Source: Emcibacter sp.
GTDB lineage: Bacteria; Pseudomonadota; Alphaproteobacteria; Sphingomonadales; Emcibacteraceae
DNA length: 37,350 nt
NCBI GenBank assembly: GCA_021774875.1
Contig: JAJFIP010000261.1
Span: 1 to 37,350 of the forward strand
Direction: 5' to 3'
Shown: in pieces, positions 14,002 through 33,064 of the stretch
Layout: every line of letters starts with the position of its first letter
Position numbering within the stretch: the first letter of the stretch is position 1
Notes under the pieces: generated by a model
Seen by the model: only the letters and a program-made list of their open reading frames with translations
Told to the model about the DNA's origin: nothing
Database searches by the model: none
Translations under genes and position numbers: made by a program

Positions 14002-15276
14002 ATGGATACAGACCTCACATATGATGAATTTTCTGATCTGCTGCTGGCCATGAAGCCTGCGCCGAGAGAGAGGATCGCAGTGGCGGTGTCAGGCGGTGCT
14101 GATAGTATGGCTCTGACTGTGATGCTAGGTGAATATTGTCGGGCGCATGAAATTTCCCTGACCGCGGTGACAGTTGATCATGGCTTGCGCGAAGAGGCCA
14201 CTGATGAAGCCATTCAGGTGGGAAAGTGGCTCAAAAAACAGCATATTTCCCATGTGATTCTCAAATGGCAGGGGGATAAACCCAACAGCAATATTCAGGA
14301 TCAGGCCCGAATGGCCCGTTACCGTCTGATGGGAGACTGGTGTCAGAGTAATAATATCTCCCGGCTATTCCTTGCCCATCATCAGGGGGATCAGGCGGAA
14401 ACTTTCCTGATCCGTCTGTTTCGCGGCAGTGGTATTGACGGCCTGTCTGCCATGAAAGCCCAGACTGATTTTCCGCATCTTTTACCGACAGGGGATATTA
14501 CCCTCTGCCGGCCACTGCTTTCAGTGGCTAAGGCTCGTCTTGAAGCGACTTTGCGGCAGCGGGATCAGCCATGGATAGAAGACCCCAGCAATCACAATGA
14601 AGCCTTTATGCGGATCAAGGTGCGAAATCTGTTGCAGGAAAATGATATTGAAGGTCTGGACGAAGAACGGATGGCCCGAACGGCAGCAAGAATGGAGCGG
14701 GTACGATCCCTGTTGCAGTTTTTAACGGAGGATTTGATACAGCAGTCAGTGACTTTTTTCCCGGAAGGATATGCCGAGGTAAAGTTATTCCCCCTACATT
14801 CAGCCCATGAGGAGATCGCCCTGCGCTGTCTTGCGTCACTAATACGCAGGGTCAGTGGTAGCAAATATGTCCCGCGCATGAATAAGCTCGAAGCCCTGTA
14901 TGACAGATTGAAGGGGTCAGATTTTCCCGGTCAGACTTTGGCAGGATGTATGATTTCACCGTTACGGAACCAGCGGATCATGATCAGCCGGGAAAGTGCA
15001 GCTATAGAAGATGTCATCGATCTTGAAGCAGACATGAAAATATTATGGGATGGGCGTTTTCTTATTGAAAATCATGCGACAGCGGGTATCTTGAAAAAGC
15101 TGGAAGACACACAGTGGCAGACAGTGTGTCAGGAAAATCCGGCGTTAGCAAATCCAAAACCGGGTAAAACTATCAGGGACAGTCTGCCGTGTATTGTTTC
15201 AGATGATGGTAGAGTGATGTTGCCGGATTTTATACCGGGCTTTGAGAAAACAGGCTTTAAGGCCATATTTAAGTAA
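14002..15276 (+). CDS. tilS: tRNA(Ile)-lysidine synthase TilS
   Basis: TilS converts C34 of the CAU-anticodon tRNA-Ile to lysidine using ATP, so that it reads AUA. The track starts this frame at 13873, inside cpoB. ATG 14002, just after the cpoB stop, gives 424 residues and the normal N-terminal spacing. The PP-loop AVAVSGGADSMALTVMLGEY is at about residues 25-44. TVDHGLREEA, NIQDQARMARYRLM and FLAHHQGDQAETFLIRLFRGSG are the other N-terminal domain signatures. IKVRNLLQEN leads into a divergent C-terminal region. The CpoB-TilS-FtsH order is conserved in alphaproteobacteria. Confidence 0.95.
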   Translation: MDTDLTYDEFSDLLLAMKPAPRERIAVAVSGGADSMALTVMLGEYCRAHEISLTAVTVDHGLREEATDEAIQVGKWLKKQHISHVILKWQGDKPNSNIQDQARMARYRLMGDWCQSNNISRLFLAHHQGDQAETFLIRLFRGSGIDGLSAMKAQTDFPHLLPTGDITLCRPLLSVAKARLEATLRQRDQPWIEDPSNHNEAFMRIKVRNLLQENDIEGLDEERMARTAARMERVRSLLQFLTEDLIQQSVTFFPEGYAEVKLFPLHSAHEEIALRCLASLIRRVSGSKYVPRMNKLEALYDRLKGSDFPGQTLAGCMISPLRNQRIMISRESAAIEDVIDLEADMKILWDGRFLIENHATAGILKKLEDTQWQTVCQENPALANPKPGKTIRDSLPCIVSDDGRVMLPDFIPGFEKTGFKAIFK

Positions 15277-15373
15277 TCTTTTGTCAATGTTTTAGCTGCA
15301 AAATGCTGAAATGTGGATAAAATGCAAAAATAATGCTGCTATTGGCTTGTTTGAACCTCAAAAAGGCCTATTT

Positions 15374-15397
15374 ATGAGTGATAACAGTGACAATTGA
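15374..15397 (+). other. Seven-codon upstream ORF before ftsH
   Basis: ATG 15374 is preceded by AAAAAGG and encodes MSDNSDN before a TGA at 15395-15397. That stop overlaps the TTG (15394) which starts the annotated ftsH frame. The arrangement would allow termination and re-initiation. Alternatively a one-base sequencing or assembly error has split the true FtsH N-terminus. The ORF is seen directly; either reading is inference. Confidence 0.4.
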
Positions 15398-17340
15398 AAG
15401 ATACGCGAAATATGGGACGTAATATTGCATTATGGGCGATAATCATAATCCTGCTGTTGACCCTTTATTCCGCCCTGAATGGCGGAGAGCGTCAGAGCGC
15501 ACAGGCGGAAATTGATTTTTCCACTTTTCTTGATCGGGTGGAATCCGGTCAGGTCGTAAAAGTCACAATTCAGGGCAATGATATTGTTGGTGAATATGGG
15601 GCCGGGGCCAATGGTAATTTTCATACCCATGCGCCGGAATATCCGAACCTCGTTAACGACTTGCGGGCCAAAGGGGTGGTTATTACCTCTACTCCGGAAG
15701 AACAGGGCTCATTTCTGAATGTTTTCCTCGGCTGGTTGCCGATGATTGTTTTGATCGGGGTATGGATTTTCTTCATGCGCCAGATGCAGGGTGGTGGCAA
15801 TAAGGCCATGGGCTTTGGCAAGTCCAAGGCGAAATTGCTCAATGAATCACATGGCCGGGTCACTTTTGATGATGTGGCAGGTATTGATGAAGCCAAGGAA
15901 GAACTGGAAGAAATTGTTGAATTTTTGCAAGACCCGCAGAAATTTGAACGGCTCGGCGGCAAAATTCCAAAAGGTGCTTTGCTTGTCGGCCCACCCGGTA
16001 CTGGTAAAACCTTACTGGCCCGGGCGATTGCTGGCGAGGCTAACGTGCCTTTCTTCACTATTTCCGGCTCAGATTTTGTTGAAATGTTTGTCGGCGTAGG
16101 AGCCAGCCGGGTTCGTGACATGTTTGAACAGGCTAAAAGGAATGCGCCCTGCATTATCTTCATCGATGAGATTGATGCCGTTGGCCGGCATCGTGGTGCG
16201 GGCCTTGGCGGTGGCAATGATGAGCGGGAACAGACGCTCAATCAGCTGCTTGTTGAAATGGACGGGTTTGAATCAAATGAGGGCGTTATCTTAGTGGCGG
16301 CAACCAACCGCCCGGACGTGCTGGACCCTGCACTATTGCGCCCTGGTCGTTTTGACCGTCAGGTTGTGGTGCCGATGCCTGATATTATCGGGCGGGAGAA
16401 AATCCTCAAAGTTCATATTAAAAAGACTCCAAAACTGGCGGCAGACGTGGATGTTCGGGTTCTTGCAAGGGGCACCCCCGGTTTTTCCGGCGCTGATCTT
16501 GCCAATCTGATTAATGAAGGTGCTTTGCTTGCGGCCCGTAAAGGTAAGCGGGTCATCACTATGGATGACTTTGAAGAAGCTAAAGACAAAGTCATGATGG
16601 GGGCGGAACGCCGTTCCATGGTGATGACAGAAGAAGAAAAACGCATGACTGCTTTCCATGAAGCTGGCCACGCTTTGGTCGCGGCAAAATGCCCGGCATC
16701 AGACCCCATTCACAAGGCAACTATCATTCCGCGCGGTCGGGCACTGGGTATGGTGATGCGGTTGCCGGAAAAAGACAGCTATTCCTATGCCCGTGATAAA
16801 ATGCATGATGATCTTGCCGTGTCTATGGGTGGTCGCGTAGCAGAGGAAATATGTTTTGGCTATGATAAAGTGTCATCCGGTGCTTCTGGTGATATTGCCA
16901 GTGCCACCAGACTAGCTCGGGCTATGGTTACCAAATGGGGTATGAGTGACAAGCTCGGTATGTTGCAATATGGCGATAATCAGGAAGAAGTATTCCTTGG
17001 GCATTCAGTATCTCGCAGCCATGATATTTCAGATGAGACAGCAAAACTTATTGATCAGGAAGTTCGTGAAATTGTTGATGGAAGCTATGCCCGGGCCCAT
17101 AAAATATGTACCGATCATAGGGATTTACTGGATAAGCTCGGTAATGCGCTGTTGGAATATGAGACCCTGACTGGTGATGATATTGATAATATTATCGCGG
17201 GCAAGGAAATTCATAAAGACCTGTTCGGAGATGATAGTTCTGACGACACCCCGAATGCGGGGTCTGTTCCAAGTGCAGGCAGCAAGCCTGACGATGATAA
17301 GGGGGGGAGTTTCGGCTCTGACCCGGTTCCTGAAAATTAA
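15394..17340 (+). CDS. ftsH: ATP-dependent membrane zinc metalloprotease FtsH
   Basis: FtsH is an essential inner-membrane hexameric AAA+ protease degrading short-lived and damaged proteins, including LpxC and sigma-32 in E. coli. It has 648 residues from TTG 15394; ATG 15412 (MGRNIALW) is the alternative. TM1 is about residues 9-26 and TM2 about 110-128, with the small periplasmic domain between. Walker A is GPPGTGKT (199-206), Walker [12 protein letters not shown], and the second region of homology [12 protein letters not shown]. The zinc motif HEAGH is at 422-426, with the third ligand Asp in the later '[15 protein letters not shown]' region. The C-terminus is acidic and Gly/Ser-rich. No poor start codon is expected for such a protein, hence the upstream-ORF note. 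Confidence 0.97.
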
Positions 17341-28972: not shown

Positions 28973-29302
28973 CTAGGCACCTCCGGCGCGAAATTGTTCG
29001 TGATGACGGATGACCTCGGTAATGATGAAGTGGAGGAATTTCTCAGAAAAATCCGGGTCCAGTTTGGCTTTTCTGGATAGGTCGCGCAGTCGTTCAATCT
29101 GCCTTTGTTCCCGGTCTTTGTCTGCGGGTGGCAGGTCGAACTTAGCTTTAAACTCTCCCACATGCTTGGTGATTTTAAAGCGTTCGGCAAGCATATGGAT
29201 TAATGCCGCATCTATATTGTCGATACTATCCCGGTAAGATGCCAGAATTTCAATTTGTTGATCTGATATTGAGATCAGGGTTTTTTCTGTTTTTCTGGTC
29301 AT
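28973..29302 (-). CDS. Chorismate mutase, AroQ type
   Basis: The 109-residue all-helical protein matches the CM_2 domain: SYRDSIDNIDAALIHMLAER (helix 1), ITKHVGEFKAKFDLPPADKDREQRQIERL and FSEKFLHFIITEVIRHHEQF (helix 3). Arg in the first helix and Lys/Arg in VGEFKAK and DREQ correspond to the substrate-binding basic residues. It rearranges chorismate to prephenate for phenylalanine and tyrosine. There is no fused prephenate dehydratase. The gene is three bases downstream of the CDP-alcohol phosphotransferase stop, which places it at the end of a lipid-related operon rather than with aromatic genes. Confidence 0.92.
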   Translation of the reverse strand: MTRKTEKTLISISDQQIEILASYRDSIDNIDAALIHMLAERFKITKHVGEFKAKFDLPPADKDREQRQIERLRDLSRKAKLDPDFSEKFLHFIITEVIRHHEQFRAGGA

Positions 29303-29305
29303 GGT

Positions 29306-30196
29306 TCAGATGATTTCTTTCAGCCGTATTGAAAATAACTGGTTTAACAGGCGTTGCTTTTGAATCAAAACTATCAGAATCGGGGTTAGAATAGCAATCT
29401 CGAACCAGAAAAAATAAATTGGCTGCCCGGCAATACAGGCAATGAAGATGGCTATGGTTCGGTAATTGGCACACATGACAGACCAAGTATTGACAGCCGG
29501 GGCATAGGTTTCCCGGTATAATGTCCTGATTTCATTTGTCTTATCCTGATTGTCCTGTAGAGCATTTCTCAAGCTTTTGCGATGCGCAGAGTTAATGCCG
29601 CTTGACCTGCGCTGCATTCTGACATAACCGATATGGAATTGGCTCATTATAAAGGCCAGGGCTGATTTACCCTTGAGGTCCGCGATCATGTGACTTATTT
29701 CCGGCAGGGCCGCAGATTGTTTGCCGTGGCCCCAGTAATCATATTCCCCGCGCTGCAATTCATAAGCACTGGATTGTATGGCATGTAGAACCACGGCGGC
29801 CAGAATAATATACCAGACTTCAGAATAGCCCTGCTGTGAAAGGGCGAGGCCTAGCCCCAGATAAACGCTGAAAAAAGTCACATAATCACAAACACCATCC
29901 AGTACTTTGCCGATTTCCGAATAACTTTTGGTCAGTCGGGCCAACTGTCCGTCAGCCCCGTCCATGATGTGCCAAAGTATCATGCAGATAAATCCGGCGA
30001 CTGCCATATAAGGGTTGTGGTAGTTAAAGTAGGCAAAACCCGCCAATATGCCAAACATCATTCCGGTCAGCGATACCATATTGGGGGAAATATTTTTGGC
30101 GGCAAACTTCGGGACCAGCCAGCCGCTGATGGGATGAATGAAGTAAAGATTTGTATATTCTTCAATTTCACCGGTACGCTTTACAGGATCTGTCAT
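29306..30196 (-). CDS. CDP-alcohol phosphatidyltransferase family protein, intact motif
   Basis: This 296-residue membrane protein carries the complete family motif D(x)2DGxxAR(x)8G(x)3D(x)3D: DGADGQLARLTKSYSEIGKV then LDGVCD, with Asp79, Asp82, Asp100 and Asp104. ISPNMVSLTGM is the typical lead-in helix ('TPNxvT'). Several TM helices are visible (MAVAGFICMILWHI; FFSVYLGLGLALS; IAIFIACIAGQPIYFFWF). Such enzymes transfer a phospho-alcohol from a CDP-linked donor to an acceptor alcohol in phospholipid head-group synthesis. The acceptor cannot be told. It sits 12 bases after a larger protein with a degraded version of the same motif, and just before chorismate mutase. Confidence 0.9.
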   Translation of the reverse strand: MTDPVKRTGEIEEYTNLYFIHPISGWLVPKFAAKNISPNMVSLTGMMFGILAGFAYFNYHNPYMAVAGFICMILWHIMDGADGQLARLTKSYSEIGKVLDGVCDYVTFFSVYLGLGLALSQQGYSEVWYIILAAVVLHAIQSSAYELQRGEYDYWGHGKQSAALPEISHMIADLKGKSALAFIMSQFHIGYVRMQRRSSGINSAHRKSLRNALQDNQDKTNEIRTLYRETYAPAVNTWSVMCANYRTIAIFIACIAGQPIYFFWFEIAILTPILIVLIQKQRLLNQLFSIRLKEII

Positions 30197-30208
30197 CGTA
30201 TATTGTTT

Positions 30209-31567
30209 CTATAAGATATTGGGTTTTTTGAATTTTTCAGCGAAATTTTCACTATTGGCTATGGTTATGTTTTTGAGATGATACACAAGTCGTGCCTGAT
30301 GTACAAAGAAAGTTATCGTGCCGTAGGCGCAAATAAAGCCAAAGCCCATATACCACTGGTCACTCAGGGCAAAAGGAAACAATGCCCACATTAGTGTATT
30401 GCGTCTGCCGGCGATCAGTTGGAATTTCCGGTCAAATGATGCGGTATCGCAGATCTGAAAATTGGTCAGACGGTAAAAAAACTTACTCTGAATTTCATCG
30501 GCAATCTGAAATAATACCAGAGCTGTTGCCATGATATAGGGGGCTTCGCCGTGGGAGTCTGATAAAAAAACTGCAATGGCAAAATACCAGCCATAGGCCA
30601 TCAACTTACCGATCAGATGTTTGAAGTCATCAACTCTGGACGTCTGTATTTCTACCCGGGCAAGTTTGCCATCAACACCACCCAGAATGCCCACAGCATA
30701 TGCCCCGAGTAGAGCAGGCATCAGGTGACCGCTGCCGAAAAGATATATGATAGCGAAACCAAACAGACCCGCCATAATGGTTACGTGATAGGGGGATACC
30801 GGACATTTACACAATTGCTTGACAATAAAATTTTCAATTGGCCGGTGAATATAATGCGCGACCCAGTCCAGATTTCCTTTCTGGGCATATTCAAGCATAA
30901 CATCTGTTCCCTTGTCACCGTCGGGACGCTGGAGGACAGGGAACCACACCAGATCCACATTCCGGTTCAGGTTTGCCATATAAAGTGGAATTTCCACAAC
31001 TTTTGTGATTTCACAGTCGCCTGCTCTCGAAATTGCTTTCAGGCTACCGGGCAGTCCTTCCAGGCTGTTAAGCTTGCGTACATTAGCCGCCAGGGTGGTG
31101 CTGGATAATTTGGCAATGGAGCCAAAATAACCCTCCTGATCTTCAAGCTGAAGCAGAATACCGGCAGCCGTGCGTTCTTCCAGAAATTCATGATGGCCGA
31201 TAAGACTGATTACTGTGGGTGAAGGATGGGTCGCCACCTGATTAATGATGCGGTCATCAACGACAACGCCCTCTTCAATCAGAAACCAGATATTACCCTC
31301 ATTGTTATGTTCCAGAAGCCTCAGGGGGGCGTCTTTGGTATTATGGATAAAAATTCTTTCGGGACGTTTTGTGCAATTCTGGATTTCTCTTTCAAAATCC
31401 TGCATGAACCAATCGGTTATCACATGCATTTCAGTGACACCTATGGCCTTCATCTGTTTCATTTGCCGAGCAAATATACTTAAGCCCCCGACATGGATCA
31501 GGTTTCGCGCCAATGTGCTGACGGTTTCGGATTCCTGACCGGTTATCAGGAGGGCTTTTTTCGTCAT
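30209..31567 (-). CDS. Two-domain protein: nucleotidyltransferase-like plus degenerate CDP-alcohol phosphotransferase
   Basis: The 452-residue protein resembles the archaeal and thermophile inositol-phosphate cytidylyltransferase/DIPP synthase fusion in layout. Residues of about 1-230 look like a nucleotidyltransferase fold (LIHVGGLSIFARQMKQMKAI, GVTEMHVITDW, IWFLIEEGVVVDDRII), but the usual GxGxR loop is replaced by ITGQESETVS and the metal Asp region reads EEG. Residues 245-452 are a CDP-alcohol phosphotransferase membrane domain (CPVSPYHVTIMAGLFGF). Its motif reads GGVDGKLARVEIQTSRVD then DFKHLIGK: Asp1 is Gly296, Asp3 is His317 and Asp4 is Lys321; only Asp299 remains. Catalysis by the standard mechanism is unlikely. 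It overlaps no gene and leads the operon with the intact transferase and chorismate mutase. Confidence 0.8.
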   Translation of the reverse strand: MTKKALLITGQESETVSTLARNLIHVGGLSIFARQMKQMKAIGVTEMHVITDWFMQDFEREIQNCTKRPERIFIHNTKDAPLRLLEHNNEGNIWFLIEEGVVVDDRIINQVATHPSPTVISLIGHHEFLEERTAAGILLQLEDQEGYFGSIAKLSSTTLAANVRKLNSLEGLPGSLKAISRAGDCEITKVVEIPLYMANLNRNVDLVWFPVLQRPDGDKGTDVMLEYAQKGNLDWVAHYIHRPIENFIVKQLCKCPVSPYHVTIMAGLFGFAIIYLFGSGHLMPALLGAYAVGILGGVDGKLARVEIQTSRVDDFKHLIGKLMAYGWYFAIAVFLSDSHGEAPYIMATALVLFQIADEIQSKFFYRLTNFQICDTASFDRKFQLIAGRRNTLMWALFPFALSDQWYMGFGFICAYGTITFFVHQARLVYHLKNITIANSENFAEKFKKPNIL

Positions 31568-31648: not shown

Positions 31649-33064
31649 TTATTTTGCCGCCCGGCTGATATTTTTGATTATTTGCCATGCTTTGTCCAGA
31701 TGCTTTTGCTCAGTCGCAGGGGCTCCGCTAACCAGACGAATGGCATATTTTCCGTTAATACGTGTCTGGGTCAGGTAAATGTCACCCGTATCATTGATGG
31801 CTTCAAATATCCTCTCATTCAGGGCATCAAGCTGAGCTTCAGACTTATCATCTGGATGATAACGAAAACAGAATAATGCCAGCGGGTTGGGCGCCAGCAG
31901 TTCAAAGTCCTGCTCCCTGTCTATTTGTTCTGCCAGCGTATGGGTCATTTCAATATGGCGCCGGATATGATTTTGCAACCCCGTGATGCCATATGATCGT
32001 ATGACAAACCACAATTTCAGCGCCCGAAAGCGGCGGCCCAATACAGGCCCCCAGTCCCGGTAATTATTGACCTGATCGCCCTCGCGGGTTTTCAGATATT
32101 CCGGCAATATCTCGAAAGTGCGGATCAGGGCGGCTTTATCCCGGATAAAAAATGCCGAACAGTCAAATTGCGTCAGCAGCCATTTATGGGGGTTAAAGAC
32201 AAAACTGTCGGCATACTCTATGCCTTTTATCATCCATTGATATTCCGGCAGTACCAGCGCACTGCCTGCCCATGCCGCATCCACATGGAGCCAGACGTCG
32301 TATTTTCTGCAGATTTCACCTATGGCCTCAAGCGGGTCAATAGCAGACAGGCTGGTGCTGCCCAGAGTGGCGACAACACAGGTTGGTTTATGACCGTCTT
32401 CAATATCCGCAGCTATAGCTTTGTCCAATTCAACTGGGATCATGGTAAAATTTTCATCAACCGGAATTTTGCGCAGGTTATCAGAGCCCAATCCAGCCAT
32501 GCGGATACCTTTATCGGTGGAGGAATGAACCTCTGCTGAGGCATAACAGCAATGCCGCCCGGCTTTACTTAAACCCCGGTGATTGGTCTGATAATCATTG
32601 AGTGTCTCACGGGCAGTAAGGAAGGCGGCGAGCATGGCCGTGGATGCTGTATCCTGTATGACGCCGTGAAAATTGGCAGGCAGGCCGATCATTTCTCTTA
32701 GCCAGTCCAGAACCCGCTCTTCCAGTTCTGTTGCCGCTGGCGAAGTTTGCCAGCTCATACATTGGGCCGCCAGCGTGGAGGTAAGCATTTCCGCAAGAAT
32801 TGATGGTGGACTGGCATTGGCAGGAAAATAAGCCATAAACCCCGGATGCTGCCAATGGGTCATGCCGGGCATGATAATATCCTGAAAATCCCGGAAAATG
32901 TCATCCATAGGCTCAGGATCGGTCGGTGCAAATAAAGGAAGCTGCGCCATTATTTCACCCGGCTTGGTTAGGGGCTTGACCGGATAGCTTTCGATATTTT
33001 CCATATAATCAGCCATCCAGTCGACAAATTTATGGGCATTTTTTCTGAAATCCTGAGAATTCAT
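31649..33064 (-). CDS. Group II PLP-dependent amino acid decarboxylase (aromatic-L-amino-acid decarboxylase-like)
   Basis: The 471-residue protein begins MNSQDFRKNAHKFVDWMADY and GFMAYFPANASPPSILAEML, the sequence pattern of plant and animal aromatic amino acid decarboxylases. The PLP Lys is Lys294 in SFVFNPHKWLLTQFDCSAFF; the ring-stacking His is at 180 (AEVHSS) and the pyridine-binding Asp at 262 (WLHVDAAWAGS). HWQHPGF and SWQTSPAATELE form the substrate site seen in AADC. The substrate could be tyrosine, phenylalanine, tryptophan or DOPA; it cannot be chosen from sequence by eye. It is divided from the downstream operon by 81 bases and from the upstream acyltransferase by 62 bases on the same strand. 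Confidence 0.9.
   Translation of the reverse strand: MNSQDFRKNAHKFVDWMADYMENIESYPVKPLTKPGEIMAQLPLFAPTDPEPMDDIFRDFQDIIMPGMTHWQHPGFMAYFPANASPPSILAEMLTSTLAAQCMSWQTSPAATELEERVLDWLREMIGLPANFHGVIQDTASTAMLAAFLTARETLNDYQTNHRGLSKAGRHCCYASAEVHSSTDKGIRMAGLGSDNLRKIPVDENFTMIPVELDKAIAADIEDGHKPTCVVATLGSTSLSAIDPLEAIGEICRKYDVWLHVDAAWAGSALVLPEYQWMIKGIEYADSFVFNPHKWLLTQFDCSAFFIRDKAALIRTFEILPEYLKTREGDQVNNYRDWGPVLGRRFRALKLWFVIRSYGITGLQNHIRRHIEMTHTLAEQIDREQDFELLAPNPLALFCFRYHPDDKSEAQLDALNERIFEAINDTGDIYLTQTRINGKYAIRLVSGAPATEQKHLDKAWQIIKNISRAAK

Follow-up and report, generated by a model that had tools for sequence, protein, structure and literature searches.

A degenerate IPCT/DIPPS-like fusion protein beside an intact CDP-alcohol phosphotransferase in Emcibacter: a candidate non-catalytic accessory of a probable CDP-inositol pathway

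INTRODUCTION

Why would a bacterium keep a gene for a membrane enzyme whose catalytic residues are gone, directly beside the gene for an intact relative? The question is raised by a 37,350-nucleotide stretch of DNA (contig JAJFIP010000261.1, here called the window), one contig of the 3.9 Mb draft genome of Emcibacter sp. (GCA_021774875.1; G000). Two proteins with CDP-alcohol phosphotransferase (CDP-AP) domains are encoded there side by side: SMALL, a CDP-AP of 296 amino acids (aa), and BIG, a fusion protein of 452 aa. The original prediction, made from the sequence, placed three open reading frames at 28973-29302, 29306-30196, and 30209-31567, all on the minus strand, and all three were found there. 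It suggested that BIG, once a bifunctional enzyme, may now serve SMALL as a regulatory or structural partner. Here, myo-inositol-1-phosphate synthase (MIPS), SMALL, and BIG were counted in 201 genomes of the order; many of the genomes searched for relatives were metagenome-assembled genomes (MAGs). BIG fits best as a pseudoenzyme accessory, a non-catalytic partner, and we infer that it partners SMALL in a physical or functional sense.

RESULTS

SMALL (29306..30196, minus strand) is an intact CDP-AP and the probable catalytic protein of the pair. It matches PF01066 with 54.1 bits (cut-off, 22) and carries the class I CDP-AP motif DxxDGxxAR-x8-G-x3-D-x3-D as D79-x2-D82-G-x2-A-R-x8-G96-x3-D100-x3-D104 (29885..29962, minus strand). 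All four Asp residues are present, as predicted, and the signature positions are invariant in 12 aligned sequences, with identities down to 23%.

BIG (30209..31567, minus strand) does not have this motif. It joins a nucleotidyltransferase-like N-domain (about residues 1-205; 30953..31567, minus strand) to a CDP-AP-like membrane domain (about residues 230-437; 30257..30880, minus strand), and the catalytic signatures are gone from both. The signature region of the membrane domain (residues 296-321, GGVDGKLARVEIQTSRVDDFKHLIGK; 30605..30682, minus strand) reads G296-x2-D299-G-x2-A-R-x8-D313-x3-H317-x3-K321. In an ungapped register, the predicted changes of Asp1 to Gly, Asp3 to His, and Asp4 to Lys hold, and the Gly preceding Asp3 is also lost. 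A gapped register, favored by HMMER against 4MND and by hhalign against SMALL, places Lys316 at Asp3 and Gly320 at Asp4. Asp3 and Asp4 are lost under both registers. The domain scores 13.7 bits in Pfam, below the cut-off of 22; BIG relatives reach 34.8 and 37.9 bits. In the N-domain, TGQESETVSTLAR stands in place of the GxGxR loop, the absence of which had also been predicted, and the Lys of PKPL is replaced by Arg21.

Both halves of BIG are recognizable in profile comparisons. With hhalign, the N-domain aligned with the IPCT-like family at a probability of 87% (E 3.7e-6) and the CDP-AP-like domain with SMALL at 98.9% (E 2.7e-17); with HMMER, the membrane domain matched 4MND and AF2299. The best solved match of the BIG profile was 4MND (E 1.4e-10), the bifunctional IPCT/DIPPS of Archaeoglobus fulgidus, in which a nucleotidyltransferase-like domain is likewise followed by a CDP-AP membrane domain. 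The predicted likeness to an IPCT/DIPPS fusion is therefore borne out in layout. Against NF041135, the model for IPCT/DIPPS, BIG scores 45 bits (cut-off, 580), and a relative that keeps D1 and D2 scores 63.9. Unlike IPCT/DIPPS, BIG has neither the GxGxR loop nor the PKPL Lys nor the set of CDP-AP Asp residues, and the two activities are assigned here to separate genes. Because these defining catalytic features fail, BIG shares the architecture of IPCT/DIPPS without being counted as a member. AF2299 (4O6M), a solved relative of both BIG and SMALL, also has a soluble cytidylyltransferase-like domain fused to a CDP-AP, but it keeps the canonical signature in the aligned stretch.

The BIG frame is full-length and open in 12 congeneric genomes and continuous in a 13th, where a contig end cuts it; G014 holds a fragment of 62 aa. 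No frameshift or stop was found in any full-length or long copy of the genus, and wherever both genes share a contig in the genus, SMALL directly follows BIG. The frame is open not only in the window but also in 13 other genomes, and the decay varies by species; a sequencing or assembly error was therefore ruled out as the cause of the broken motif.

Relatives outside the genus show how the signature was lost. Their CDP-AP half reads LDG(V/L)DGKLAR-x8-G-x2-E-H-x2-(D/T)-K-x2-EY, and His and Lys at Asp3 and Asp4 are the family-wide state; in the gapped alignment (HMMER and hhalign), the E and D of the family fill these positions after a one-residue deletion. Eleven relatives keep D1 and D2, and the variant signature, including E, H, and K, is essentially invariant among them. 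The GxGxR loop is absent from all full-length relatives read, and the PKPL Lys is Arg in most. None of the full-length relatives read in the order has an intact nucleotidyltransferase domain, and no full-length relative was found outside it in 385 genomes of the class and 399 of the phylum; all BIG relatives found fall within the window's order. The decay thus proceeded in two stages: the missing GxGxR loop and the altered Asp3/Asp4 are old, and Asp1 and the rest of the signature were lost in some lineages only. A tree from which the signature columns had been excluded required three or more switches between the decayed and the kept state (the window's family, family f2, and G068), the exact number being uncertain on account of long branches.

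The prediction of a once bifunctional, now inactive enzyme stands to the extent that BIG behaves as a conserved pseudoenzyme. A decay of the whole protein in the window genome does not stand: no BIG relative found has the N-domain loop, and in all of them the Asp3/Asp4 region is altered. An intact motif in relatives had been named as a sign of error; this holds by half, since relatives retain D1, D2, the G, A, and R positions, and an E/D pair, but the difference is lineage-specific decay.

Loss of the signature was accompanied by constraint on the remainder of BIG. Mean pairwise identity across the ten signature columns was 0.98 in the 11 relatives versus 0.21 in the window's genus, where every one of the ten is variable. 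In 50 other columns conserved among the relatives, identity in the genus was 0.69, and the signature value was lower than in 20000 of 20000 permutations (0 as low). Within the genus, conservation is lowest over residues 301-320 (identity 0.34) and highest over N-domain residues 1-40 (0.85-0.88). Arg21, GG27-28, Glu98, Asp104, and Arg106 of the N-domain are conserved, and N-domain residues are invariant across families. Pairwise dN/dS (the ratio of nonsynonymous to synonymous substitution rates) was 0.14-0.25 for BIG, with dS near 1, close to saturation, for most pairs, and 0.10-0.15 for SMALL in the same genome pairs. In the close pair G008/G010, BIG had a dN/dS of 0.135 at a dS of 0.19, matching SMALL. 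BIG is under purifying selection in the window's genus.

Across the order, BIG and SMALL occurred together in 27 genomes, BIG only in 6, SMALL only in 38, and neither in 130. SMALL is thus present in 27 of the 33 BIG genomes (Fisher p 1.7e-10), which answers the co-occurrence check proposed with the prediction. The association was also seen without the window's genus (p 4e-6), and the two genes are usually adjacent when together. SMALL and MIPS accompany the D1/D2-keeping form of BIG in 11 of 11 genomes. Two of the six BIG-only genomes are incomplete MAGs of the window's genus; the others are G018, G025, G048, and G052. BIG was absent from 13 sampled members of genus g5, in which G021 alone has it, and from many other genomes. 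Taken together, the ancestral function of BIG was tied to the inositol pathway, and its catalytic signature was repeatedly lost while the protein was kept.

The pathway itself was read from the partners of SMALL. SMALL and MIPS were both present in 63 genomes and both absent from 125, with SMALL only in 2 and MIPS only in 11 (p 6e-38); the two SMALL-only genomes are incomplete MAGs (69% and 83% complete). In many relatives, SMALL lies near the genes for MIPS and an intact IPCT-like cytidylyltransferase. The neighborhoods of relatives outside the genus encode MIPS (PF01658, E 2.9e-36), a Polysacc_synt-type flippase, and a nucleotidyltransferase (PF12804) whose GxGxR loop is intact. The first solved matches of the nucleotidyltransferase profile were 2XME (1.9e-28), 4MND (1e-27), and 4JD0 (3.8e-23), all of them IPCTs. 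The window genome has the MIPS gene next to the intact IPCT-like gene on a contig other than that of SMALL (G000:C139:13736-14863 and 14888-15604), and a flippase gene on contig C186. The stand-alone IPCT-like enzyme carries the GxGxR loop as AAGQGTRM, with the G, R, and K positions invariant. SMALL, BIG, MIPS, and the cytidylyltransferase are contiguous in G160. In Sphingomonas parapaucimobilis (NZ_CP155750.1), SMALL, MIPS (inositol-3-phosphate synthase), and an NTP transferase form a minimal three-gene operon with overlapping ends (L139:8001-10668) on an 853 kb replicon, with no BIG or flippase nearby and no HAD hydrolase in that annotated region. A different arrangement was seen in the congener G012 (L085, G012:C17:176-1101), in which the SMALL gene is split in two and BIG is missing, with MIPS and the cytidylyltransferase present.

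From the co-occurrence of SMALL with MIPS, and from its position near MIPS and an IPCT-like gene in many relatives, SMALL probably uses CDP-inositol. A CDP-inositol-dependent transferase is the most likely assignment on gene linkage and family membership, and the original guess of a CDP-inositol head group is consistent with these genetic partners. Related cytidylyltransferases can use other phosphates, as reported for CpgD of Caulobacter (PMC12275187), and the inositol assignment therefore leans on the adjacent MIPS. The SMALL profile matched the eukaryotic enzymes CEPT1/CPT1 (8GYW and 8ERO; E 1.6e-7 and 1.3e-6), which move the head group of a CDP-alcohol onto diacylglycerol; AF2299 and CEPT1/CPT1 ranked before phosphatidylinositol-phosphate (PIP) synthase. 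Compared with CEPT1/CPT1, SMALL is shorter, has about six hydrophobic segments in a simple hydropathy scan, and has genetic partners that point to inositol. Its best NCBIfam matches, all sub-threshold, were archaetidylinositol-phosphate and PIP synthases. In several other families, an MMPL-family transporter is encoded inside the inositol cluster (L067:7614-10298, L083:3942-6362, L123:7319-9808, and L124:7977-10463). The flippase and, in several clusters, the MMPL-type transporter suggest that the product is a lipid, which the MMPL transporter would carry onward, and we lean toward a phosphatidylinositol- or inositol-ceramide-like lipid.

In the window, gaps of 81, 12, and 3 nt separate a decarboxylase-like gene, BIG, SMALL, and a chorismate mutase gene, which therefore look like one operon. 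The AroQ-type chorismate mutase (28973..29302, minus strand; NF006691, 151.5 bits, cut-off 120) lies 3 nt downstream of SMALL. It is found in the corresponding neighborhood of G016, G017, G019, G020, G022, and G024, where its position varies. The original prediction had grouped it with the two CDP-APs; membership in the function is unsupported, given this variable position and a product that no inferred pathway member uses. On available evidence, chorismate mutase is a syntenic bystander, a member of the neighborhood and not of the function. The gene 81 nt upstream of BIG (31649..33064, minus strand) encodes a pyridoxal phosphate (PLP) enzyme like aromatic-L-amino-acid decarboxylases (PF00282, 377.9 bits), with DOPA decarboxylases as the nearest solved structures. 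It is a conserved neighbor in the window's genus and in G016 and G017. A supply of the head-group amine by this enzyme was considered and set aside, as only conserved adjacency within the family was seen and the protein resembles aromatic amino acid decarboxylases.

Other fused or associated proteins were also encountered. A third fused protein of about 400 aa combines an N-domain without GxGxR and a CDP-AP with the canonical motif (L079:5620-6828, plus strand; L078:5236-6441, minus; L077:8427-9572, minus). It adjoins a second flippase paralogue in L077 and L079 and could be another CDP-inositol user; in the window genome, the second flippase alone was seen, at a contig end (G000:C102:3641-4786). 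Family f4 and G025 have another type of fused CDP-AP, in which the motif is canonical and the N-domain short (L074:9086-10288, minus; L075:8648-9841, plus; L076:4712-5869, plus). The genomes concerned lack MIPS, and the conserved neighbors of this protein include a nucleotidyltransferase that falls into the IPCT-like cluster. Cluster c13 comprises conserved, apparently secreted proteins of about 370-410 aa for which no Pfam model scored above threshold (L063:7293-8450, L071:7539-8642, and relatives); in several of the family's genera, they are encoded next to SMALL and the flippase. In G183, a 375-aa protein beside SMALL (L126:6987-8114, plus strand) has a degenerate nucleotidyltransferase-like start (VIVFASGRDAERLVAGVPAAARSVREARRAG) and may be a further BIG-like pseudoenzyme.

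DISCUSSION

In the pathway that we propose, MIPS would make inositol-1-phosphate and the stand-alone IPCT-like cytidylyltransferase would convert it to CDP-inositol. SMALL would then move inositol phosphate from CDP-inositol onto an acceptor, most likely a membrane lipid, which the associated flippase would move. BIG would derive from an IPCT/DIPPS-like fusion whose two catalytic functions now reside in separate genes, those of the IPCT-like enzyme and SMALL. Within the window's genus, it would be a double pseudoenzyme whose retained role is non-catalytic; most likely, it would bind SMALL by way of the CDP-AP fold common to both, the cytosolic cytidylyltransferase or its nucleotide product by way of the N-domain, or both. 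We favor, with some reserve, this overall reading of a CDP-inositol pathway in which SMALL is the transferase and BIG a non-catalytic accessory. The decay, the purifying selection, the linkage, and the pathway genes are its observed parts; substrate, as judged from families and linkage, acceptor, and the partner role of BIG are its conditional parts. The more specific idea that BIG is a doubly inactivated IPCT/DIPPS-type fusion, now a regulatory or scaffolding subunit coupling the soluble CDP-inositol-making enzyme to the membrane phosphotransferase, is tentative and falls short of an even chance.

Several observations weigh against this reading. Of the 65 genomes with SMALL, 38 have no BIG; BIG is therefore dispensable and not a generally required subunit. 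G018, G025, G048, and G052 keep BIG with decayed signatures and without SMALL and MIPS, so that the retained role of BIG may be independent of SMALL. G012 and G023 keep MIPS and the IPCT-like gene with SMALL broken or absent. The six or so hydrophobic segments of SMALL fit the layout described for CDP-APs with soluble acceptors (PMC4634129), as opposed to the match to CEPT1/CPT1, which points to a lipid acceptor. AlphaFold2 modeling of BIG from four sequences gave a mean pLDDT of 36; the model was not used, and no structure or complex was obtained.

The route to the lipid could also be a different one. SMALL might be a PIP synthase acting on CDP-diacylglycerol and inositol-1-phosphate, with CDP-inositol made for another enzyme, e.g., the second fused CDP-AP, of the c58 type, and with BIG unrelated to the reaction of SMALL. 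Its sub-threshold NCBIfam matches agree with this, and the same genus has c58-type proteins that carry the canonical motif and adjoin a second flippase. However, the SMALL-MIPS-NTP transferase operon of S. parapaucimobilis has no adjacent c58 gene, and AF2299 and CEPT1/CPT1 outrank PIP synthase for the SMALL profile. We consider this route unlikely.

BIG itself may be seen in two other ways, both of which the conservation data make harder to hold. As a redundant second transferase of the inositol pathway, decaying and with no present function, BIG would fit its three or more changes of signature state, its patchy presence in g5 and elsewhere, and the four genomes that hold it without the rest of the pathway. 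A dN/dS of 0.14-0.25, equal to that of SMALL in G008/G010, genus copies free of frameshifts and stops, and the retention of other conserved columns and of N-domain identity while the signature was lost make such a relic rather improbable. Catalysis at a remodeled site is the least likely of the explanations considered. Such a site could lie in the N-domain (Arg21, GG27-28, Glu98, Asp104, and Arg106), where residues are invariant across families, or, in relatives, in the variant CDP-AP site DxxDGxxAR-x8-G-x2-E-H-x2-D-K, whose near-invariance in the 11 relatives, E, H, and K included, suggests an active variant site there. In the window's genus, however, all ten signature columns vary, the nucleotide-binding loop is gone in all relatives, and the same genome already has an intact IPCT-like enzyme and an intact CDP-AP. 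The non-catalytic accessory thus remains our preferred reading of BIG.

Among described clusters, the nearest is a putative alternative one for inositol lipids in Prevotella and Bacteroides vulgatus (Heaver et al. 2022; PMC9246714), which contains MIPS, an NTP transferase, a CDP-AP, and an HAD hydrolase, and for which a CDP-inositol route was proposed, its function being unproven. The first three are likewise encoded together in relatives of the window genome, in which SMALL shares no contig with MIPS or the IPCT-like gene. Differences are the phylum, the lack of an HAD hydrolase among the neighbors identified here, the presence in its stead of a flippase and, in some genomes, of an MMPL transporter, and the addition of BIG. 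As reported in the same work, Novosphingobium acidiphilum has a lipid resembling phosphoinositol dihydroceramide despite having neither known cluster (PMC9246714). Judging from other genomes of the order, the SMALL-MIPS-IPCT set is a candidate to fill this gap. Judged by titles and abstracts, the papers matched in a search for Emcibacter polar lipids included no description of them, and a single search of open-access papers turned up none on CDP-AP-family pseudoenzymes, which is weak evidence of absence.

If the proposed reading is true, BIG would be a pseudoenzyme of the CDP-AP family whose catalytic signature was lost three or more times independently within a single bacterial order, as part of an uncharacterized proteobacterial inositol-lipid pathway. 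The SMALL-MIPS-IPCT set occurs order-wide, Sphingomonas included, and offers a genetic candidate, open to testing, for how alphaproteobacteria make inositol lipids. With 11 relatives that keep the variant signature and several lineages that have lost it, the BIG family is a natural experiment. It lets one ask directly whether a membrane CDP-AP can turn into a non-catalytic partner.

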